From positions 1 to 41,701 of IMG/VR virus record IMGVR_UViG_3300046522_000243: a DNA stretch of 41,701 nt. One strand, written 5' to 3'. Positions 7,462 to 17,903 of the stretch are shown here, piece by piece; position 1 is the stretch's first letter; every line of letters begins with the position of its first letter. The position numbers and the translations under genes are program-made. The notes under the pieces were generated by a model, which saw only the letters and a program-made list of their open reading frames with translations, did no database searches and was not told the DNA's origin. Origin of the DNA: a virus.

Positions 7462-10248
7462 TCAATGGATGTTCAGTGCTGGAATGCTGTCCCCGAACGG
7501 AACGTAAGGCACAAAGGCGTTGCAACCCGTTGCAGCCATCTGCGTTTCGAACAGCTCCTCGACTTCGTCCCGCCAGAACCACGGTATCTTGGCGACGATA
7601 TCGGGGCGCTCCTGCATCTTGCCGTCGGCGTCTTCGACTTCCGGGTCGGAGACGATCGGTATCGGCGGCGTGATGCCGAAATAGCGCTCAAGCGGGATGT
7701 TCTGCATGATCCACTTGATCGCTGCTGCGGCTTCGTCCTCGTATCCTTCCAGGGCCTCACAGGCAAGGCAGTCGTGGATGAAGCCGACTGGGCGAACGAT
7801 GCGTGGGTCTGCATGGCGTTCGAGCATGGTCGCAGCGATAACGCCGAGATCGGAGCCGAAGCGTTGAATAGGCGCATTGACCGCCTGACGTTCGGCCATG
7901 GCGACGGCGCTCTCATCATTCGACCAGATGGACGGAAGGCGGCGCAGCGCACCATGCAGCGAACGCACGAAACCTGTCTTATGAGCCCACTCCTTCATCC
8001 GCTTATGCCACGGCACCAGACCTGGGTACTTGCGGAAATAAAGGGTGCGGGTCTCCTCCGCCTCACGGTCGGTGTATTCGACACCATATTGGGTCTTGGC
8101 GTAGCCCTTGAAGCCGCGCCACCCCATGCCGTAGACGAAACCGAAGTTCACCGCCTTGGCCTTGGTGCGGTTGTCTTTCTTGGTGCCGCCATCTAGCAGC
8201 ATCCAGTCATCGATCGAAATCTTCAGCGTCGCCTGGGCTGTTTCGGTGTGGATGTCGCCGCCCTCGGCATAGACGCGCAGCATTTCGCGTTCGTTCGCCA
8301 TCCAGGCAACCAGGCGGAGCTCGATCTGGGACAGGTCGCAGTCGACGCGCCGGTAGCCAGGCGTTGCCTTGAAGCTCTTCCGGTAGGTCTTGGCGAATTC
8401 GCCGCGCTTCGGGATGTTCTGCCCGTTCGGCTCCTGCGAGGAGGTGCGGCCGGTGTTTGTCTTATCCAGGCGATAGCTCGGGTGCACGTGCCCGTAGGCC
8501 GGCATGTTCGAGCCTTCTGATCGCTCTGGAAGCACCATGTATTTCCAGAAGCCGGAGCCTTTCTCCTCCTCGCCGATATAGGTCGACAGCAGCTTTACCG
8601 CCTTTTGGTACTGGATATAGCCGCGCACGAATTCGCCGGCCGTGCCGCGCGCGTCCTCGAAATAGGGCATGTGCGTTTTCGACGAGACGGACGGGATAAG
8701 CTGGCTGAGATACGATTGCCGTTCGGCTTCGCTCTTGGCTTCCTGCGCCATCTTGACGAAGTGCGCCGTGCCGTCGGTGAAGACCTTCGGCTTGAGCTTG
8801 AAACCGATGTCGCTGAACAGGATGTCACGCATGAAGTCGTCACGCGTGAACGACAGCATCTTCTCGATCGATTTGCCTTCCCGCTGCGCCTGCTCGATCG
8901 TCTTGCGGCGGACGGCCGGCGGCACCATGGCAATGAGACGCGTGTATTCCTTGGCGACCCATTCTTTGATCTCGCGCTCAAGCTGGCGCAGGTAATCAAG
9001 GTCGATGTTCTGGCCGTAGACCTCGATCGTGCGGCCGAAGGCGAGCAGGCCAGGCATCATGATGCGGCGGTAGCAGTTATACTGCATCGGGTCCTGACGG
9101 AGCAGCGGCACCAGGACCTGGGCGAGGCGGAAGGTGGCATCAGGATCGCCGCCTGCGTAATTGCGCATGCCCGGCTGGATCAACACGCCGTTGTCGTCGT
9201 AGACGTCCTCGGGCGGCACGCTCATCATATCATTCTTGTCGATGAGCTGGTTGAAGACGTCGGCGTAGCCAGCCATCTCCGGAACCCAGCGCTTGACGCA
9301 GTCGTCGAGGTTCTTCTGGGTCATGTTCTCGTCGACAGCAAAGGCGAGCTGCATCGTGTCGTGCACCCAGTTGGTGACCGGCATGCCTTCTTCACGCAGA
9401 ACGTGGCTGTCGAATTTCAGGTTATGCGCGACCTTGGCGATGTCCGGATCGGCCATGAGCTGCTGGAGCTGCTTGCGCAGTCTGAGCGTGCCTCGGAAAC
9501 CAGTCTGGTCGTCGAACCAACGGCGCCGGTATTCCGGGTGGATCGGGCAGATCAGCGTATGGCCGACGCGTGGCGTAAGCTGCACGCAGATGATCTTGGT
9601 CGTGTCGCGATACCAGCGAAGGCCCGTGCCTTCCGTGTCTACCGCAAGGAACTTCGGCTTGTTGTCGATCAGCTCCTGGAGGTCCCAGCACCATTCGTAA
9701 TTCGCGGAATTGCCACGCACGGCCTGCTCGTCGAAATCATTGTCGACGATCTTCTTCATGGTGATGAAGTCGGTACGGAAAACCGGCTCCTGCTCCGGCA
9801 CCTTCTGGATGAAGCCGGGCGAGAGGATAGGGAAGATGATCCGGTCGCCCTTGCGCTGGGCGATGCCACGGCATTTGGTGATCGCCGACGCGGAGCCGGT
9901 GACGGCGCGCACCGCAAGGTTGCCGATCGGCACAATCATGCGCGGGTTGCGGCGGGCGATCAGTTCATCCAGGTCGGCGATGAACGGTTGCACGAAATCC
10001 CAGGTGCGCTTTGCCGACTTGACCGCTGCCTCCGGGATAGGCGGGCATAGTGCCACGAACTGGAACAGGCCCTGCGGCAGGTCTGCGCGGGCGAGATAGT
10101 CGGCCAGGAAGTTGAACGACTTGACGCCCATCGGCCGGCGCTTGATCAACGCGTCCTGGGTCTGCGGGTCACACAGGACAAGGATGGGTGCTTCCGGCAG
10201 GCCGACGCTCGCGCGAAACCATTGAGACTGAGCAAGCGCGATATTCAT
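7462..10248 (-). CDS. family A DNA polymerase with uracil-glycosylase-like N-terminal domain
   Basis: A 928-residue replicative polymerase. Residues ~20-170 resemble the family 4 uracil-DNA glycosylase fold (GNLAVRAVTG at 109-118, ITKCRG at 123-128), but the catalytic motifs are altered: LCDPQTQD replaces the GEAPG-type motif and ILSPG the HPS-type motif, so it is probably not catalytic. The 3'-5' exonuclease has Asp204/Glu206 (VDTEGTG), Asp280 (HNLKFD) and Tyr364/Asp368 (YAGGD). Polymerase motif A is DLSQIELR (Asp638), motif B runs from Arg694 to Tyr706-Gly707 with Lys698 and Phe702, and motif C is IHDCLACE (Asp826; the usual Glu after HD is Cys). ATG 10248 overlaps the helicase stop. Confidence 0.93.
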   Translation of the reverse strand: MNIALAQSQWFRASVGLPEAPILVLCDPQTQDALIKRRPMGVKSFNFLADYLARADLPQGLFQFVALCPPIPEAAVKSAKRTWDFVQPFIADLDELIARRNPRMIVPIGNLAVRAVTGSASAITKCRGIAQRKGDRIIFPILSPGFIQKVPEQEPVFRTDFITMKKIVDNDFDEQAVRGNSANYEWCWDLQELIDNKPKFLAVDTEGTGLRWYRDTTKIICVQLTPRVGHTLICPIHPEYRRRWFDDQTGFRGTLRLRKQLQQLMADPDIAKVAHNLKFDSHVLREEGMPVTNWVHDTMQLAFAVDENMTQKNLDDCVKRWVPEMAGYADVFNQLIDKNDMMSVPPEDVYDDNGVLIQPGMRNYAGGDPDATFRLAQVLVPLLRQDPMQYNCYRRIMMPGLLAFGRTIEVYGQNIDLDYLRQLEREIKEWVAKEYTRLIAMVPPAVRRKTIEQAQREGKSIEKMLSFTRDDFMRDILFSDIGFKLKPKVFTDGTAHFVKMAQEAKSEAERQSYLSQLIPSVSSKTHMPYFEDARGTAGEFVRGYIQYQKAVKLLSTYIGEEEKGSGFWKYMVLPERSEGSNMPAYGHVHPSYRLDKTNTGRTSSQEPNGQNIPKRGEFAKTYRKSFKATPGYRRVDCDLSQIELRLVAWMANEREMLRVYAEGGDIHTETAQATLKISIDDWMLLDGGTKKDNRTKAKAVNFGFVYGMGWRGFKGYAKTQYGVEYTDREAEETRTLYFRKYPGLVPWHKRMKEWAHKTGFVRSLHGALRRLPSIWSNDESAVAMAERQAVNAPIQRFGSDLGVIAATMLERHADPRIVRPVGFIHDCLACEALEGYEDEAAAAIKWIMQNIPLERYFGITPPIPIVSDPEVEDADGKMQERPDIVAKIPWFWRDEVEELFETQMAATGCNAFVPYVPFGDSIPALNIH
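7521..7534. promoter_or_regulatory. palindrome TGCAACCCGTTGCA inside polymerase gene
   Basis: Exact family member in the last ~70 nt of the polymerase coding sequence, where it encodes Ala-Thr-Gly-Cys. It lies ~109 bp upstream of the -35 of promoter B. Confidence 0.7.
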
Positions 10249-11504
10249 ACGCCAAATCCTTGTGTCTGCCGCACCTCGTCTGTCTCGTCATCCGAGCAGG
10301 TGAGGTAGCTGAAATCCATCGGTTCGAAGAGGAAGTTGGCGCGCATCCAGCCCTTCCGTCCTTCGCGGTTCTTGTCAACGAGCAGGTCTCGGGTGTCGTG
10401 CTCGCGGGGGCTTTCGCCCTCGGTTAGAATGATGACTGTCGTGCTGTCCTGAGAGATACCGATCGAGCCGCCGATCATGCCGCTGTCGAGATCGTCGCGC
10501 TTCTTCTTGCGCGCATCGGAGTTGAGCTGCAGGGTCTGCACGACAGGCTTGTTGCGAGACAGCGCGATACGCTTGATGTCCTTTGACATCTCGCGCTGCC
10601 TTTCCCAGCCCTGCTCGGTCTTGCGGATTTCCTTCGGAATGAGCAGGTAGGCGGCGTCGACATAGACGACGTCAGGGTTGAATTCCTGCACCAGGTTGTC
10701 GATGTCGTCTGGACCGAGCCGGAACGAGCCGTCGACGATGGTGAAGGGTGCCCCGGTGCGCATTTCGGCCGTCTCGGCGTAGAAGCGATCCTGGGTCCAG
10801 TGCGAGAGCTGGCCGCGTCGGATGTTCTCCGGGTTGATGCCGGTATATTGGCCGATGAAGCGGGTCACCATCTGCAGTGCCGTCATTTCCATCGAGACGT
10901 AGAGGCACGAGCAACCGGCCAGCCAGGCGCCCATACTCATATGATTGAGGTAGTAGGACTTGCCCATGCCGGTTCGCGCCGCGATCGAGCAGACGTCACC
11001 TGCCTGAAGGCCTCCGGTCATTTCGTCCAGCCACTCGTAGCCCATCGTGAAGCCCTGAATACCGGGCGATGTGCGCGCAACTTCGTATCGTTCGACGACC
11101 TGGTCTATGACTTCGGCCAGGGACACCACAGCGCCACCGGTAATCGTGGTGCGCAGCGTGCCGGCGAGCGAAGTGACAATGTCGAGGATGACCTGAGCGT
11201 TTCCCTGCACGACCGCCTGTTGAAGCGGTGCCATGATGTCGCGCGACTGCAGCACGATGAACCGGTCGGCCATGCGCTGCAGGTAGTAGTCTGCGGTCTC
11301 GTTGTCGCGGATATGCTGGAGAGGGAAGCTGTTGTCGTTGAGCGCTTCCAGGGTCGGAAGCTGGCCGTACTGCCGGACGTAGGTATTGACGTAGTCGAAG
11401 ACCGGGCGCTCTTCGATGATGAAATGGTTCGGGTTGGTTCGGCGGAATGCGGTGCGCGAGCCCTGAGTGCACAGCTTCTTGATAAGGGACAGGCCCGCGC
11501 TCAT
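10245..11504 (-). CDS. DnaB-like replicative helicase (superfamily 4)
   Basis: A 419-residue RecA-fold hexameric helicase expected to unwind DNA at the phage fork. Walker A ARTGMGKS at ~176-183, VSMEM near 203-207 (DnaB motif 1a, catalytic Glu), VVYVDAAYLL as Walker B near 270, a PVVQTLQLN sensor segment and a DKNREGRKG arginine-finger-type motif near the C-terminus. The N-terminal ~140 residues are helical and match the DnaB N-domain/linker position. ATG 11504 overlaps the upstream stop (ATGA) and follows GGAGAG; a GTG at 11510 is the alternative. Order initiator, loader-like protein, DnaB, polymerase gives a coherent fork-assembly module. Confidence 0.9.
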   Translation of the reverse strand: MSAGLSLIKKLCTQGSRTAFRRTNPNHFIIEERPVFDYVNTYVRQYGQLPTLEALNDNSFPLQHIRDNETADYYLQRMADRFIVLQSRDIMAPLQQAVVQGNAQVILDIVTSLAGTLRTTITGGAVVSLAEVIDQVVERYEVARTSPGIQGFTMGYEWLDEMTGGLQAGDVCSIAARTGMGKSYYLNHMSMGAWLAGCSCLYVSMEMTALQMVTRFIGQYTGINPENIRRGQLSHWTQDRFYAETAEMRTGAPFTIVDGSFRLGPDDIDNLVQEFNPDVVYVDAAYLLIPKEIRKTEQGWERQREMSKDIKRIALSRNKPVVQTLQLNSDARKKKRDDLDSGMIGGSIGISQDSTTVIILTEGESPREHDTRDLLVDKNREGRKGWMRANFLFEPMDFSYLTCSDDETDEVRQTQGFGV

Positions 11505-12070
11505 TTCCACTCTCCGATCGTCTCATTGAGCTTTGCAACGCGTTGCACCAGCTCTGACGGGAGACCGCTTCGGTCCATCGGTAGCTTGCTGTGTATGAGC
11601 AGTCGCTGCCCCGCTGCGATCCACTCCTCCAACCGCGTCGCCATGAAGCGGAGTTCGCGCTTCGTGAACAGCTCGTCACCGACCTCCGACGGGCTGACTT
11701 TCGTGAGCAGCAGGACCTTGACCTCGTCCAGGCGCTCTTCGAGGCGATCGCGATCGTTGTGCAGCCAGTCGCAGAAGCGGATCAAAGGGATCACGCTGAC
11801 AGGGCGGCCGGTGACATGCAGTCCACGCGCAACGAGGATGGCGAAGTCTTCCATGTCATTGCCGCCGATGAACGTGAAGCCGGTCTGCGGCGAGGTCTGC
11901 GACGTTGTTAAAACCCACTCCTGCAGGCGCTTGGCGTCTTCGTGCTTGACGGTGTCAAGGCCGGCGCGGTGGTAGTGGGCGAAGATACCCGCCTTGTTGA
12001 GCGAGCGGATTACGCCGGCGTCGGTCTGTTGCTGATGGGTGACAGGCTTCTTGGACAAGGTCAGTTCCAC
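11501..12070 (-). CDS. possible helicase loader, degenerate DnaC/AAA+-like, lacking Walker A
   Basis: A 189-residue protein between initiator and DnaB-like helicase, the classic loader position. By layout it resembles the ATPase half of DnaC/IstB-type proteins: GFTFIGGND (strand and P-loop position), ILVARGLHV, VSVIPLIRFCDWL, KVLLLTKV at the Walker B position and GQRLLIHSKLP at the sensor 1 position. The P-loop lysine and the Walker B acidic pair are absent. A nucleotide-independent loader is therefore proposed; this is inference from weak similarity and synteny. The start is GTG 12070, overlapping the initiator stop by 10 nt. A palindrome lies near the 3' end (11534-11547). Confidence 0.5.
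   Translation of the reverse strand: MELTLSKKPVTHQQQTDAGVIRSLNKAGIFAHYHRAGLDTVKHEDAKRLQEWVLTTSQTSPQTGFTFIGGNDMEDFAILVARGLHVTGRPVSVIPLIRFCDWLHNDRDRLEERLDEVKVLLLTKVSPSEVGDELFTKRELRFMATRLEEWIAAGQRLLIHSKLPMDRSGLPSELVQRVAKLNETIGEWK
11534..11547. promoter_or_regulatory. palindrome TGCAACGCGTTGCA upstream of DnaB-like gene
   Basis: Exact and perfectly symmetric member. It encodes Val-Gln-Arg-Val-Ala at the end of the loader-like gene and ends 29 bp before the helicase ATG. Confidence 0.7.
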
Positions 12071-13509
12071 TTCGAATAGTCAAGTTCCGGCAGGTCGAGC
12101 GGTTCGAGGCTGTAGTCTCCCAGCTCCGGAAAGCCCTCTTCGTCCTTGGTCTCGGTCGCCTGTGCGGCCTGCTCGGCGCGCTGGCGCATCAGCGCCTTCT
12201 GCTCGGCGCGGGCCTTGGCACGGGCGTCCTCGGCGCGGCGTATGGCATCGCCGTTGAAGCGTTTTACCTCGCTCTCCTTGCCTCGGGCCTCAGACAGCGC
12301 CTGACGCTTGCCTACGGCCACCAGCGCCTCGTCACGGGACATCCCGCTACCGATCAGCCGCTCGACTTCCTGCTGCTCTGCCGGCAGGAGCCGGATCGTC
12401 CCGTAATGCTGGCGCTCGGCAAAGGCATCGAGCAGGTTCGACATCGTGTTCGGGCGGGTCAGGAACTGGATGTTCGGCTTGTCGGGCGGGGACACCTTGG
12501 TCATCCAGCCGAACTTCGTAGACCTGATCTGCGGCCAGTTGCGGACCACGAAGTCCACGAAGTCATGGCGCTTCTGCGGGTCGTCGTAGAGCCGCGATTT
12601 GATCATGGCACGGAAGCGGTGCTTGTCGTTCTGGGTCCATGTCGGGCAGGGGACGCCGGGGAAGGTTTCGGCCCAGGCTGCGGTGTACGTCGTGTGGTAG
12701 GCGTCCGAGCTATCGCGCTCCCTGGCAGCGGCTGCCTTCTGCTTGCGGCTCTCGACACCCTCGCGCTGCCAGCGGGCAACGGCGGCCTCTGTCTTGTCCT
12801 CGAAGACATCGAGCGCACGGCCGGTGCGGGAGGGGGCGGCCGGAACCGGGGAGGGTTCTTGACTTTCCGGGGTAAGGGTTGGCCGCGTTCGCTGACGAAT
12901 TCTTCCTGGAACTGGCAAGTCCGCCCCAGCCGAGCGAAGCGACGGCTTAAAGTGGTTTTCTTCGTTATGTTTATCGTTCTGTTTAATAGGGCCGCCAGAT
13001 TGGCGGTCAATACCCGCCAGATTGGCGGTCAAAAGGTCGTCTGAATTCTTCTTGCCCGCCAATTTGGCGGTCAAAGACGAGGCGACTGATAGACCAGAAA
13101 TCTCGTCGTCCGTTTCCGCGTCTACATTTTTCCGGTTTTTCGGGATCAAAAGCGACATGACGCCCTCCATCGGGGTCCAGAGAAAATTGAGGCAGATACG
13201 CTGGCAGGTGCGGTGCACGACCTCGATCGTGAGCGCGCCCTTGGCCTTCAGCTTGGCAATGATGCGTTCGAGGGTCCGGCGAGAGAAGCCGACCGGCGGC
13301 AGGCGCCAGGTCCAGCCGCTATCGTTGTCGGAAGGCACGCCGGAGAGCATCTGGTCGATAGTGACATCGAGCACAGATCGGCCCCATTCGACCGTGTTGT
13401 CGATTAGGTAGCGTAGGAAGTCACGCTCGTCCGACGAGAGGTATAAACGCCACTCACGCTCTAGTACGTTACGGACAGCGCACCTCTCTTGGGAGGAGAA
13501 TGCGGTCAT
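12061..13509 (-). CDS. putative replication initiator with internal iteron origin
   Basis: A 482-residue protein. Residues ~1-130 look like a winged-helix DNA-binding domain (DERDFLRYLIDNTVEWG, then GFSRRTLERIIAKLKAKGAL as recognition-helix region), as in phage/plasmid initiators of the lambda O/Rep type. Residues ~140-270 are low-complexity and are encoded by the iterons, giving repeated LTAKLAG and LTANLAG. The C-terminal half has a conserved-looking helical domain (AAWAETFPGVPCPTWTQNDK region) and an Ala/Arg/Glu-rich helix. ATG 13509 is chosen; the frame is open to a TTG at 13713, but this would read through the antisense RNA hairpin. Its position before loader-like and DnaB genes supports the initiator role. 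Confidence 0.65.
   Translation of the reverse strand: MTAFSSQERCAVRNVLEREWRLYLSSDERDFLRYLIDNTVEWGRSVLDVTIDQMLSGVPSDNDSGWTWRLPPVGFSRRTLERIIAKLKAKGALTIEVVHRTCQRICLNFLWTPMEGVMSLLIPKNRKNVDAETDDEISGLSVASSLTAKLAGKKNSDDLLTANLAGIDRQSGGPIKQNDKHNEENHFKPSLRSAGADLPVPGRIRQRTRPTLTPESQEPSPVPAAPSRTGRALDVFEDKTEAAVARWQREGVESRKQKAAAARERDSSDAYHTTYTAAWAETFPGVPCPTWTQNDKHRFRAMIKSRLYDDPQKRHDFVDFVVRNWPQIRSTKFGWMTKVSPPDKPNIQFLTRPNTMSNLLDAFAERQHYGTIRLLPAEQQEVERLIGSGMSRDEALVAVGKRQALSEARGKESEVKRFNGDAIRRAEDARAKARAEQKALMRQRAEQAAQATETKDEEGFPELGDYSLEPLDLPELDYSKWN
12992..13074. repeat. three iterons, candidate replication origin
   Basis: Three 19-bp direct repeats CCGCCARWTTGGCGGTCAA at 12992-13010, 13014-13032 and 13056-13074; the first two are identical and the third differs by one base. 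Each has an internal palindrome CCGCCA-N3-TGGCGG. Start-to-start distances of 22 and 42 bp put them on the same DNA face. An AT-rich tract lies alongside (about 12945-12990). Iterons inside an initiator gene are known from lambda O. Confidence 0.75.
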
Positions 13510-13724: not shown

Positions 13725-14066
13725 TTAATAGATGCCCTTCAGCCGCAGCGCGTCGAGGATCGCGATCTCCGCTTTCACCGCCATGTCGTAGTCCTCGAAC
13801 TCGACAATAAGGGTGTCCTCGTTGACGGCGCCGCCGTCGGGTATTGCTCCCAGATGATCCACGAAATGCCCGCGCGCCGCCTTAATCCCGGCCCAAGGGC
13901 CCCGGAGGACGTGCACGAACCACTTCTGGGTCGGCTCATTAAATTCGATTTCCGAGACGCGCTTGATCTCGGCGTTACCGAACTGTCGGAGGTCGACGCC
14001 CTGTCCCGGCTTACGCTGCAGGCCGGAGATTGCGCCGTCGGCTCCGATGGTGATGACTTGTTTCAT
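13725..14066 (-). CDS. hypothetical protein upstream of the initiator
   Basis: Unrecognised 113-residue protein, MKQVITIGADGAISGLQ onward: a short beta-rich start (repeated in style in the DUF2997 neighbour), a FVHVLRGPWAG segment and an acidic helical C-terminus. Its leader carries two CACTGAAG/CACTGAG repeats like other leaders here; no strong Shine-Dalgarno. Last gene of the Ycf46/DUF1257/DUF2997 stretch and followed by the 215-nt region with the antisense RNA. Confidence 0.65.
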   Translation of the reverse strand: MKQVITIGADGAISGLQRKPGQGVDLRQFGNAEIKRVSEIEFNEPTQKWFVHVLRGPWAGIKAARGHFVDHLGAIPDGGAVNEDTLIVEFEDYDMAVKAEIAILDALRLKGIY

Positions 14067-14117: not shown

Positions 14118-14318
14118 TTAGGCCGGCTGGTCCGCCCTAGCATTATCCACAACTTCTTGCGGGAGTGGGAAGGTCTTCTGGATGGCTTCCCGGATCAGGG
14201 CCGCGCGGGATGCGTTTTTACCGCTTGCGATCCGGGTGGCCATCTCATGGTTAAGGCGAGCTACATCTATACGATCCAACTCGGCTCCATAGAAAGTGGT
14301 TTCTTTATCCTTGGACAT
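14118..14318 (-). CDS. small ribbon-helix-helix-like DNA-binding protein
   Basis: A 66-residue protein with the size and pattern of a CopG/Arc-type regulator: a short beta segment with ETTFYGAELDRID, a first helix (VARLNHEMATRIA), a Gly-Lys-Asn turn and a second helix SRAALIREAIQKTF. Such proteins bind short palindromes as dimers. AGAGGA is 5 nt from ATG 14318 (an ATG at 14321 is possible). A family palindrome with TT core lies 11 bp upstream, compatible with autoregulation, which makes this the most obvious small candidate for the palindrome-binding protein. That link is inference. Confidence 0.6.
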   Translation of the reverse strand: MSKDKETTFYGAELDRIDVARLNHEMATRIASGKNASRAALIREAIQKTFPLPQEVVDNARADQPA

Positions 14319-14381: not shown

Positions 14382-14588
14382 CTACCAAGTCTGCTGGACC
14401 TGCTCGCCCTGGGTAGCTTCGTTGTAGTAGCTGTCCTTCAGGTCGCGGGTGATGTTGCTGCCGGCGAGGGCGGCTTCGAGCGGGGCGGTCGCTGCGGTGC
14501 AGTTTGCGCCGTTGAAGTTTTCTGCCTCGATCTTCGGGTTGCCCATCGCGTCGATGGTGACCTTGATCTTGCGAGATGCGTCGTTCAT
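14382..14588 (-). CDS. DUF2997-type small protein
   Basis: A 68-residue protein matching the DUF2997 pattern: an N-terminal strand pair KIKVTIDAMGNPKIEAENF, then NGANCTAAT (the conserved Gly-x-x-Cys), a helix LEAALAG and a Tyr-Tyr near the end (KDSYYNEAT). ATG 14588 has AAGAAGGAAG upstream. DUF2997 genes typically sit beside DUF1257 (Ycf35) and a Ycf46-like AAA+ ATPase, as here. Biochemical role unknown. Confidence 0.75.
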   Translation of the reverse strand: MNDASRKIKVTIDAMGNPKIEAENFNGANCTAATAPLEAALAGSNITRDLKDSYYNEATQGEQVQQTW

Positions 14589-14659
14589 GGAATTCTTCCT
14601 TCTTTTCCGGGCCCCGCCCGTGAGAATGATGCTTATCACACTGCGCAGTATAGCGCGGT

Positions 14660-15133
14660 TTACATGCCGGCGAGAATGAGCTGGACGCTGCCCTGCTGGT
14701 CGATCTCGGCGCTTTCGACGAAGTAGCCCTGCGCGACGGCGGCGTTGGTGGCAGCTTCGACGGCGTAGGCCTGCATGAACTTGCCCATCTGATGCTGGGC
14801 GCGGCCTTCAGCCGTGTTCGGCATGGGGCAGGCAGCTCCGGCTCCCAGGACGCGACCGACGTAGTTGGCGTGCTCGTCGAACAGCGGCGCATAGGTGCCG
14901 TCAGCCTGCTTGTTGAAGCCGATGTCGTAGTGGCCGTCATGCAGCTTGAGGCAGAGGTCGGCCTCGGGCTTCTTGTAGCCATGCTTCAGGAGCTGGTTGT
15001 CGTAATACATGCGCGGAATGGTGTTCTCGACGAGCTCGCAGCGGATGCCCTGCGAATTCAGCTTGCGCACTGCCGCGTGCATCGCAGAAATGTCCTTGAT
15101 CTGAAGGCCATTGATCTTGGTGGTGTGGCTCAT
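14660..15133 (-). CDS. DUF1257 (Ycf35-like) protein
   Basis: A 157-residue protein with the Ycf35/DUF1257 layout: MSHTTKINGLQIKDISAMHAA start, a central YDIGFNKQADGTYAPLFDEH block near 75-95 and a C-terminal tail with QAYAVEAATNAAVAQGYFVE and a QQGSVQLIL strand. Family function is unknown; plastid and cyanobacterial copies are companions of Ycf46. ATG 15133 has AAAAGGACC upstream. First gene after promoter C; followed by DUF2997 after a 71-nt gap. Confidence 0.8.
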   Translation of the reverse strand: MSHTTKINGLQIKDISAMHAAVRKLNSQGIRCELVENTIPRMYYDNQLLKHGYKKPEADLCLKLHDGHYDIGFNKQADGTYAPLFDEHANYVGRVLGAGAACPMPNTAEGRAQHQMGKFMQAYAVEAATNAAVAQGYFVESAEIDQQGSVQLILAGM

Positions 15134-15182
15134 TTGGTGCAGGTCCTTTTCTGGTCTTGCTATGTGGTTTTGTTTACAATTG

Positions 15183-15211
15183 ATAGTCGCATACGTCTAA
15201 GTGTTTGTCAA
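15183..15211 (-). promoter_or_regulatory. promoter C (TTGACAAACACTT family)
   Basis: TTGACA at 15206-15211, 17-nt spacer, GACTAT at 15183-15188, upstream of the DUF1257 gene. The 13-mer is identical to promoters A, B and D. It is bracketed by a 10-bp inverted repeat. Confidence 0.6.
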
Positions 15212-15233
15212 CGAAAAACTTTTTTAGACGTAT
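15191..15233. repeat. 10-bp inverted repeat bracketing promoter C -35
   Basis: ATACGTCTAA at 15191-15200 and TTAGACGTAT at 15224-15233, 23-bp gap. One arm lies in the promoter spacer, the other immediately after the stop of the upstream gene. No T-run follows, so an operator is likelier than a terminator. Confidence 0.55.
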
Positions 15234-15895
15234 CAGAGATCGAGGGCGCGGCGACGGTGCGTTGTCGCCACCTCCACAGTCTGACCTTCCGAGTTGCGTA
15301 CCCGCTGGCGCACGACGCGCGTAGGGGCGATCCTTTCCGGGGCCATCTCGATGACACGCAGATAGGGCATCTGCATCCACCGGGACTGCAGGTAAGTCGG
15401 CAGGTACATCTTGGGTGCTTCGTAGCCCATTTCGGCAGCCTGCTGCAGATCGAGAATATCGAACATGCCCTCGATCGTCAGACGGTCCATGGCCGACCTC
15501 GGATTGGGGATGGTGTTGATCTCGATGCGCCGTAGCGCTGCGCCGGTGCGGGTCCTAAGCAGGATGCTGGCAGCCTTCTGCCCTTGCGGGTTTACCGTCG
15601 TGCGGGTGAGGGATAGCTTCAGCAGGACATCGTCCGGCAGCTCGTAGACCGACGAGGTCCATTTGCCGTGAATTTCCTCTGCAAGGCCCCGGCCGGCCGC
15701 AATCTTGCGGGGCGCGCCGGTCTCCATGACGCGGGGGCGCGTGCTGTCCGGCGCGTATGTGGCGTTGCGCGCCACCTGCCAAAGCTGCTCTTCCTTGCCC
15801 CCGAGAGGGTACTGCCGCGTTGGGCAGACAAAGAGGTAGAGCTTGGTCTGGCCGCTGGGCCAGTTCTCATTCCCTATGACGGTCTGTAGAAGCAT
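15233..15895 (-). CDS. hypothetical protein inside the Ycf46/DUF1257 cassette
   Basis: Unrecognised 220-residue protein with basic C-terminus (RVVRQRV, TTHRRRALDL), several Arg/Pro-rich stretches and no membrane segment. ATG 15895 lacks a strong Shine-Dalgarno. It sits between the AAA+ ATPase and the DUF1257 gene and has its own upstream region with a palindrome and a candidate promoter, suggesting separate control. It may be a partner or substrate adaptor of the ATPase; only position supports that. Confidence 0.65.
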   Translation of the reverse strand: MLLQTVIGNENWPSGQTKLYLFVCPTRQYPLGGKEEQLWQVARNATYAPDSTRPRVMETGAPRKIAAGRGLAEEIHGKWTSSVYELPDDVLLKLSLTRTTVNPQGQKAASILLRTRTGAALRRIEINTIPNPRSAMDRLTIEGMFDILDLQQAAEMGYEAPKMYLPTYLQSRWMQMPYLRVIEMAPERIAPTRVVRQRVRNSEGQTVEVATTHRRRALDL

Positions 15896-15934
15896 GTCAG
15901 CACCAACTGTTTTTTACTTTTTTGGGTTTCATTA

Positions 15935-15963
15935 AACTTGCAGCGGGGCCAGCGAAAAGTCAA
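15935..15963 (-). promoter_or_regulatory. candidate promoter for the 15895 gene
   Basis: TTGACT at 15958-15963 with only a weak CAAGTT at the 17-nt position (15935-15940). A family palindrome is centred about 28 bp upstream of the -35 (near -63). Confidence 0.35.
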
Positions 15964-15984
15964 TACGGCTATTAACCTTTCTGC

Positions 15985-15998
15985 TGCAACCCGTTGCA
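15985..15998. promoter_or_regulatory. palindrome TGCAACCCGTTGCA upstream of 15895 gene
   Basis: Exact family member in the 118-nt gap after the AAA+ gene, about 21 bp upstream of TTGACT. Confidence 0.75.
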
Positions 15999-16013
15999 AA
16001 GTGTCTCCCTCGC

Positions 16014-17729
16014 TTAGCTGTCCAGCGAGTTCTTCGGTGCGTCGAGCGCCATTGCACGACCCCCAGTCGTCGTTGCCGGCACGGCTGTCGGGGCTTGCGT
16101 CCGACGGCGGACCTTCGGCTGAGAGGTTTCGCCCTCGACACGGGATGCCGGCCGGGCATTCTGCTCCGCCCATGTCGCCATTGCCTGGAACTGGGCGCTA
16201 AAGGCTTGCGACAGCGGGACCATGTACTGAAGCTGCTCCGCAATAAGCGCGCCGGTGATGGGCTGAGCGCCGGTAAAGGCCTCGATCAGGGCGTCCTTGA
16301 CTGCGGCTTCGAGTTCGGCCGAGACGTACCCTGCCGAGCTTGCCACCGCCTCTTCGAGACCGGTGATCGCCGCTGCGTCCTGCTTGCGCTTGCGCAAGTG
16401 GATTTTGATGACCTCCATCCGCTCCGTCTCGTTCGGCGTGGTGACAGAGAAGACTTCGTCGAGGCGACCGCGCCGCAGGAATTCAGACGGCAGGTTTTCG
16501 ACACGGTTGGCAGTGACGATGGTGAAGACAGGGGCTTTCGTCTCCTGCATCCACGTCAGGATGGCGCCGAGGACGCGCTGACCGACGCCGCTGTCACCGC
16601 CAGAGCCGACCTGAAAGGCCTTATCGGCTTCGTCGATCAGCAGCACGCACGGGGCCATGGTATCGACCATCTTGAGCGCTTCGCGGACACGGGCTTCCGA
16701 CTGGCCGACGAGGGACTGGAAGACGCGGCCGACGTCGAACTTCAGCATCGGCAGACTGAGAACGGAGGCGATCGCCTTTGCGGATGCCGACTTACCGGTG
16801 CCTGGAGGGCCGATCAGCGCGATACCCTTCGGGGGCTCGACACCGAAATCACGTGCAGCCTGGGAGAAGACACGGGCGCGCTTGCCAATCCATTCCTTGA
16901 GATTGTCGAGGCCGCCGATATTGGCGATCGGCTCCGGCTCCATCAGCTCAAGGACCTCGGAACGCTTGACGACTTCCGTCTTCACGTCGCCGACCATCTT
17001 GGTCATATCGTCGATCGGGATGGCGGGAAGCGACGCACGCTTGGAGACGAGGGCGCGAGAGACTGCGTTTTCGAATTCGAAGCGCGTCATGCCGGTACCG
17101 TTGGCGACGATCTTGTCGAGTTCGGGGTCGCTGTAGCGCGGGCGCTTCGGGTCGTGGATGTCGGCGAGAAGACGCTGCAGGCTTTCCTTCAGTTCGGCGA
17201 AGGAGGGCGGGTCGAAGTCGACGATGATGACGTCATCCTGAAGCTCTTCGGGGAGCTGGTAGGAGAAAGGCGTCAGCAGCACGAGGCGGCGGTAGTTGCT
17301 GGAGAACGTCTTGGCGTACTCCTTGATGATCTGGACCATGCCGATGTTCTGCGCCAGCGGCTTGTGTGGGTGCATCATCACGTAGATGCCCCGCTCGGGG
17401 AAGGCGTTATCGCTGCGCTGCTTGCCTGGCGGCAGGTCCATCGCCGTGATCTTCTTGAGCGCTGTCAGGGGCTCGACGACATTATCGACTGACGGCTCGT
17501 CGGTCGGCTTGGTCTTGTCGAAAGTCTGCCAGCCCTGGAGGATGGTCCACATACGGAAGTCGAGGTTGTCGGCGAAGGCGAAGTCACGCAGCGCCTCAAT
17601 GGCGCGGTAAGGCTCCTTCGTCCGCACCTGGATCACGCCGATCGCGGCCTGATGCAGCACCGTGACCTGTCTGCGGAATTCCTGCGCGTTTTTCTTCTGA
17701 GCCTGCGCATTGCTCATGTTGGAGGTCAT
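16014..17729 (-). CDS. Ycf46-like AAA+ ATPase
   Basis: A 571-residue AAA+ protein. Residues ~20-190 match the Ycf46 N-domain pattern: an IGVIQVRTKEPYRAIEALRD start, a W-x-ILQGW segment, a MMHPHKPL strand, LVLLTPFSYQLPEELQDDV and PPSFAELKESL. The AAA+ core has Walker A GPPGTGKS at 307-314, pore-loop FDVGRVFQSLVGQSE at 331-345, Walker B LLIDEAD at 363-369, sensor 1 TANR at 406-409 and arginine fingers LRRGR at 418-422. The C-terminus adds a Pro/Thr/Arg-rich tail. AAGGGA precedes ATG 17729. First gene after the lysis terminator, driven by promoter D. Probably a hexameric remodeller; substrate unknown. CbbX or FtsH-type ATPases are poorer matches. Confidence 0.85.
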   Translation of the reverse strand: MTSNMSNAQAQKKNAQEFRRQVTVLHQAAIGVIQVRTKEPYRAIEALRDFAFADNLDFRMWTILQGWQTFDKTKPTDEPSVDNVVEPLTALKKITAMDLPPGKQRSDNAFPERGIYVMMHPHKPLAQNIGMVQIIKEYAKTFSSNYRRLVLLTPFSYQLPEELQDDVIIVDFDPPSFAELKESLQRLLADIHDPKRPRYSDPELDKIVANGTGMTRFEFENAVSRALVSKRASLPAIPIDDMTKMVGDVKTEVVKRSEVLELMEPEPIANIGGLDNLKEWIGKRARVFSQAARDFGVEPPKGIALIGPPGTGKSASAKAIASVLSLPMLKFDVGRVFQSLVGQSEARVREALKMVDTMAPCVLLIDEADKAFQVGSGGDSGVGQRVLGAILTWMQETKAPVFTIVTANRVENLPSEFLRRGRLDEVFSVTTPNETERMEVIKIHLRKRKQDAAAITGLEEAVASSAGYVSAELEAAVKDALIEAFTGAQPITGALIAEQLQYMVPLSQAFSAQFQAMATWAEQNARPASRVEGETSQPKVRRRTQAPTAVPATTTGGRAMALDAPKNSLDS

Positions 17730-17876: not shown

Positions 17877-17903
17877 AAAAAAGGCGGGTCACGAGGACCC
17901 GCC
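17877..17903 (-). terminator. intrinsic terminator of late/lysis operon
   Basis: 8-bp perfect stem GGCGGGTC/GACCCGCC with 5-nt loop followed on the minus strand by TTTTTTATT. It lies 46 nt past the last lysis gene and separates late from early transcription. Confidence 0.9.

Follow-up and report, generated by a model that had tools for sequence, protein, structure and literature searches.

The DNA analysed here (the window) is a virus record of 41.7 kb; since its cultured relatives measure 79-110 kb, it is probably part of a larger phage. The genes of the region described below all lie on the minus strand. In the order of transcription, an endolysin and two small genes in spanin position (18591-17949) are followed by a terminator-like hairpin, an AAA+ ATPase gene, a gene for a conserved phage protein (unk220), genes for DUF1257 and DUF2997 proteins, a gene private to the window, a further conserved gene (p113) and a block of replication genes (Table 1). 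A preliminary description had placed an AAA-DUF1257-DUF2997 cassette with one extra protein behind a lysis terminator, and the order of endolysin, small genes and stem-loop with T-run agrees with this; several relatives likewise show a terminator-like hairpin ahead of the AAA gene. The families and their placement as first genes behind the lysis block were described correctly, but the conserved p113 gene, located outside the interval 14382-17729 covered there, was missed. The viral module consists of five genes: AAA, unk220, DUF1257, DUF2997 and p113.

Table 1. Features of the module and its surroundings in the window
Feature	Position	Strand	Basis
Terminator-like hairpin, 8-bp stem and T-run, closing the lysis block	17883..17903	-	sequence
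Promoter-like element 1, TTGACA, 17-nt spacer, weak -10, upstream of AAA	17806..17834	-	sequence match
Ycf46-type AAA+ ATPase, 571 aa, degenerate N-terminal AAA and active AAA domain	16014..17729	-	profile matches, alignments
unk220, 220 aa, conserved phage protein, basic C-terminus	15233..15895	-	relatives in cassette-bearing phages
Promoter-like element 2, upstream of DUF1257	15183..15211	-	sequence match
DUF1257 (Ycf35 family), 157 aa, conserved MSH start	14660..15133	-	PF06868
DUF2997, 68 aa, invariant Cys	14382..14588	-	PF11211
Small gene private to the window, accessory, RHH-like by eye only	14118..14318	-	no relative in the fetched loci
p113, 113 aa, fifth conserved module member, phrog_38408	13725..14066	-	profile and locus searches
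Replication-initiator-like gene	12061..13509	-	homologous to L010:7254-8843, which matches replication initiation O-like families
DnaB-like helicase	10245..11510	-	profile matches
Family A DNA polymerase (PolA)	7462..10248	-	profile matches

The product of the AAA gene matches PF00004 (E=6e-30) and phrog_8638 (E=5e-161). It has the architecture of Ycf46-type ATPases, an N-domain of this type preceding a classical AAA domain in which the Walker A and Walker B motifs, sensor 1 and the arginine finger are all intact. The proposed nature of the N-domain was confirmed: a profile made from the phage N-domain only finds the N-domains of cyanobacterial AAA proteins (E=1.6e-24), and one of the cyanobacterial genes matched has a DUF1257 gene directly after it. 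The Ycf46 N-domain can itself be aligned with the AAA domain of the same family, lid included, across 190 columns (hhalign probability 94.6, E 6.6e-8) and is devoid of Walker A, which makes Ycf46 proteins look like tandem AAA ATPases with inactive first domain, comparable to p97 or NSF relatives. The double-ring ATPase p97/Cdc48, best PDB sequence relative of the active AAA domain of the window, is also a tandem of two AAA domains; the window ATPase differs from it by the absence of Walker A from the first one. The pore-loop position is occupied by leucine in the window and in most aligned rows and by an aromatic residue in the others, so threading of a substrate is possible but not assured. 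Assignments to more narrowly defined families were rejected, namely to the anti-phage ATPase IetA (64 bits against a cut-off of 510, the similarity being that of the AAA core only), to the FtsH protease (89 bits against 600, with match confined to the AAA region) and to the CDC48/p97 family (110.7 bits against 802.65). In the phylogenetic tree, whose wider part holds several unresolved forks, phage AAA proteins of the window's type make up a group of 18 rows that is separated from the cyanobacterial proteins with 100/100 support and so does not go back to a recent capture from cyanobacteria. Cyanobacteria possess at least two close Ycf46-type paralogues, and the phage clade is separate in this comparison with cyanobacterial sequences.

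Both small partner families proposed in the preliminary description were recovered by HMM search, DUF1257 with PF06868 (E=1.5e-7, 32 bits against a cut-off of 22.2) and DUF2997 with PF11211 (E=3e-9, 37 bits against 24.1). The MSH start occurs in nearly all of 38 aligned DUF1257 rows, that of the window included, and Y123 is invariant. The predicted DUF1257 model is confident (pLDDT 91); a PDB sequence search with the protein gave no significant match and Foldseek found nothing in PDB at E<=0.001. Its only match in BFVD is 51% identical to DUF1257 and thus represents another family member instead of a new link. DUF2997 proteins have a single invariant cysteine (C30 in the window), and translation of the window's gene starts at ATG 14588, which has a ribosome-binding site, not at GTG 14639.

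The extra protein, unk220, has indeed no match in Pfam, NCBIfam, PHROG or PADLOC. Its predicted model is confident (pLDDT 88), and Foldseek returned nothing from PDB at E<=0.001. A search with the single sequence retrieved no viral relative, the search patterns being too specific. Other phage lineages carry a DUF3150 protein near the AAA gene, in several cases at the very place of unk220; proteins of this kind near AAA, DUF1257 and DUF2997 genes were noted in L028, L029, L036, L040 and L097. The window's intervening protein itself does not belong to DUF3150 (PF11348) by Pfam search, and a scan of unk220-bearing records for DUF3150 found none, in a weak test whose controls also gave no match. 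From their positions we infer that unk220 and DUF3150 proteins replace each other across lineages. A literature search for DUF3150 together with phages found no mention among the papers covered.

A profile of p113 finds relatives across cassette-bearing phage loci, directly after DUF2997 or a few genes further. When loci were fetched with p113 alone, DUF1257 and DUF2997 genes lay within 8 kb in 11/11 and the AAA gene in 10/11; four of these loci (L226, L233, L234, L236) had already been in our collection or in the query, and among the seven new ones the figures are 7/7 and 6/7. p113 is tightly linked to the rest of the module. Among the bacterial-genome loci listed, it is present only in L100, a contig from a planctomycete and a possible prophage. 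The small gene between DUF2997 and p113 had been taken for an RHH-like regulator, a reading that the searches do not support: it scores below the cut-off of the ribbon-helix-helix family PF01402 (E=0.29, 11.6 bits against 20.5) and a profile search of the fetched loci revealed no relative.

The order AAA-unk220-DUF1257-DUF2997 was found in more than 20 viral loci among the matches listed, and such recurrence is more than chance. It is repeated in Rhizobium phages L338C, P11VFA and RHph_I4 and in Aeromonas phage HJ05, with one or two added genes in Pseudomonas Samunavirus and Agrobacterium phage JP1, and also, among the matches listed, in Rhodobacter phage RcDurkin and IMG/VR contigs L011-L024. 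The module proteins are about 15 to 54% identical to those of the window, so the gene order has been preserved across a long divergence. Genes in unannotated loci were called crudely, and the neighbourhood listing misses some core genes that profile searches recovered. A close parallel to the window is provided by genes 050-054 of Rhizobium phage vB_RleS_L338C, where all five genes are arranged and placed identically, with two promoter-like elements situated at matching sites. In contrast to the window, L338C has no RHH-like gene and its promoter-spacer sequence is distinct; its annotation names only an AAA+ ATPase and hypothetical proteins.

The two promoter-like elements of the window share a 13-mer, TTGACAAACACTT, of which the window holds four exact copies, each on the transcribed strand (17834, 15211, 7412 and 5121, minus): one upstream of AAA, one upstream of DUF1257 and two more in the replication region. 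A longer 22-base pattern had zero matches in shuffled sequences. L338C contains 20 copies of TTGACAAAGGAT, on one strand only, including those 81 bases upstream of AAA and 69 upstream of DUF1257. Another version is present in 15 copies in G020 and 9 in G026, and a third in 4 copies in G021; the multi-copy versions are private to each phage, as though every phage possessed a promoter or operator family of its own. When the two cassette elements of seven phages were paired by phage, their mean spacer identity was reached by 14 of 5040 pairings. This matching by phage is only suggestive, because the elements were selected visually, spacers are shared among related phages and the two HJ05 elements agree poorly (0.18). 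Each element resembles a -35 box followed, after 17 bases, by a variable -10 box, and would probably be recognised by host sigma-70 early in infection. The elements make early transcription plausible, though not specifically the immediate early expression assumed before.

Downstream of the module, the window continues with the initiator-like, helicase and polymerase genes of Table 1 and, further on, with primase and helicase genes. The N-terminus of the polymerase has a weak uracil-DNA glycosylase match (PF03167, 21.4 bits, below the cut-off of 24.3). Across phage lineages, the order AAA-unk220-DUF1257-DUF2997-p113 is followed by the initiator, a protein of about 190 aa and DnaB, and in other lineages the core stands beside RecT, YqaJ, RecE-like, SbcC-like, SSB or primase genes.

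Cellular relatives are of a different setting. Spread over many phyla among the matches listed, their AAA, DUF1257 and DUF2997 genes adjoin radical-SAM, Hsp70-like, ferredoxin, 2Fe-2S or kinase genes, not replication genes. Cyanobacteria and plastids have the same three families (Ycf46, Ycf35 and DUF2997) with the N-domain in common, but neither unk220 nor p113 was found there. We know of no biochemical function for any of the three. The canonical cyanobacterial operon is DUF2997-DUF1257-ferredoxin (PMC4284462), and such a pair with a ferredoxin gene was also seen in our fetched loci. Ycf46 has been linked to CO2 utilisation (Jiang 2015, as cited in PMC12172450), and whether red algal plastids have kept ycf35 and ycf46 correlates with habitat, a pattern that the authors connect with iron (PMC5940233). 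Bacterial loci L092 and L088 share the AAA, DUF1257 and DUF2997 trio with the window, and differ from it in containing radical-SAM (4Fe-4S) genes and in having neither unk220 nor p113; their relatives have Hsp70-like genes, unlike the window.

We propose that the module is an ATP-driven protein-remodelling machine serving phage replication or recombination complexes, and give this reading a probability of roughly 40%; the target is suggested by its position beside replication or recombination genes. The AAA protein would form a p97-like hexamer and the small proteins would act as its adaptors or regulators, with unk220 as an exchangeable part whose place is taken by a DUF3150 protein in other lineages. 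Produced early, the machine would remodel replication-initiation or recombination complexes of the phage. ClpX acts in this manner on the Mu transposase and DnaK/DnaJ on the lambda O-P-DnaB complex, a comparison meant as analogy only. The kept gene order, intact ATPase motifs, degenerate N-domain, linkage of p113, promoter-like elements and downstream replication or recombination genes speak for this reading. Against it, adjacency to replication genes may reflect early expression alone, the cellular relatives have no replication neighbours and the pore loop of the window carries leucine. The fuller claim, that several phage lineages possess a so far undescribed viral AAA+ machine, in which a tandem AAA with inactive first domain cooperates with DUF1257, DUF2997, p113 and exchangeable unk220/DUF3150 and which remodels these complexes, is rather doubtful as a whole.

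Host take-over or counter-defence, as originally suggested, would have the early AAA machine dismantle a host complex, for example a defence assembly or a transcription factor. As the opening block behind the lysis terminator, equipped with a promoter-like element of its own, the module would suit such a task, and other AAA proteins are found on both sides of phage conflicts. Specific support did not emerge, however: significant matches to defence models involve the AAA core alone and none of the partners, a long-conserved ordered block heading replication genes would be less typical of fast-turnover counter-defence, and relatives in many cellular phyla favour a housekeeping-like activity. We consider this role unlikely, and gene context favours replication or recombination over it. 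Still less probable, in our opinion, is that DUF1257 and DUF2997 are a redox- or metal-sensing pair that controls the AAA protein and tunes phage replication to the redox or nutrient state of the host. The N-terminal Ser-His of DUF1257, the invariant cysteine of DUF2997, the ferredoxin (PMC4284462) or radical-SAM and 2Fe-2S genes near cellular homologues and the red algal habitat pattern (PMC5940233) are all consistent with sensing, but viral cassettes have no ferredoxin or radical-SAM genes, a single cysteine is insufficient alone for an Fe-S cluster and the DUF1257 model has no structural match. It is very improbable that the module acts in virion assembly or late maturation and adjoins replication genes by chance; AAA remodellers can participate in assembly and the block does lie between structural/lysis and replication blocks, but the terminator and its own promoter-like element set it apart from the late genes, and in other lineages it stands beside recombination genes.

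If remodelling of replication or recombination complexes is the true role, the cellular cousin would be a general remodelling machine, offering a handle on the job of Ycf46, Ycf35 and DUF2997. As the block is compact and present in culturable Rhizobium, Pseudomonas and Aeromonas phages, the question is directly testable outside photosynthesis, with p113 as marker of, and candidate partner in, the viral form.

Further arrangements were seen in cellular genomes. The order is AAA-DUF1257-DUF2997-radical SAM (4Fe-4S single-cluster) in L092:4444-10506 and DUF1257-DUF2997-radical SAM-AAA-DUF1257 in L088:4855-8047; an apparent DUF1257-AAA fusion in the latter was ruled out, as the two parts are in different frames. 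In a Ferrigenium genome (L220:6736-9084), a Ycf46-type AAA is fused to a protein kinase domain and followed by DUF1257, with DUF2997 and a second AAA further on. Cyanobacteria (L185-L196, L098) contain several further sets of a gene for about 360 aa, DUF1257, DUF2997 and AAA, and up to seven DUF1257 matches per genome among the matches listed.
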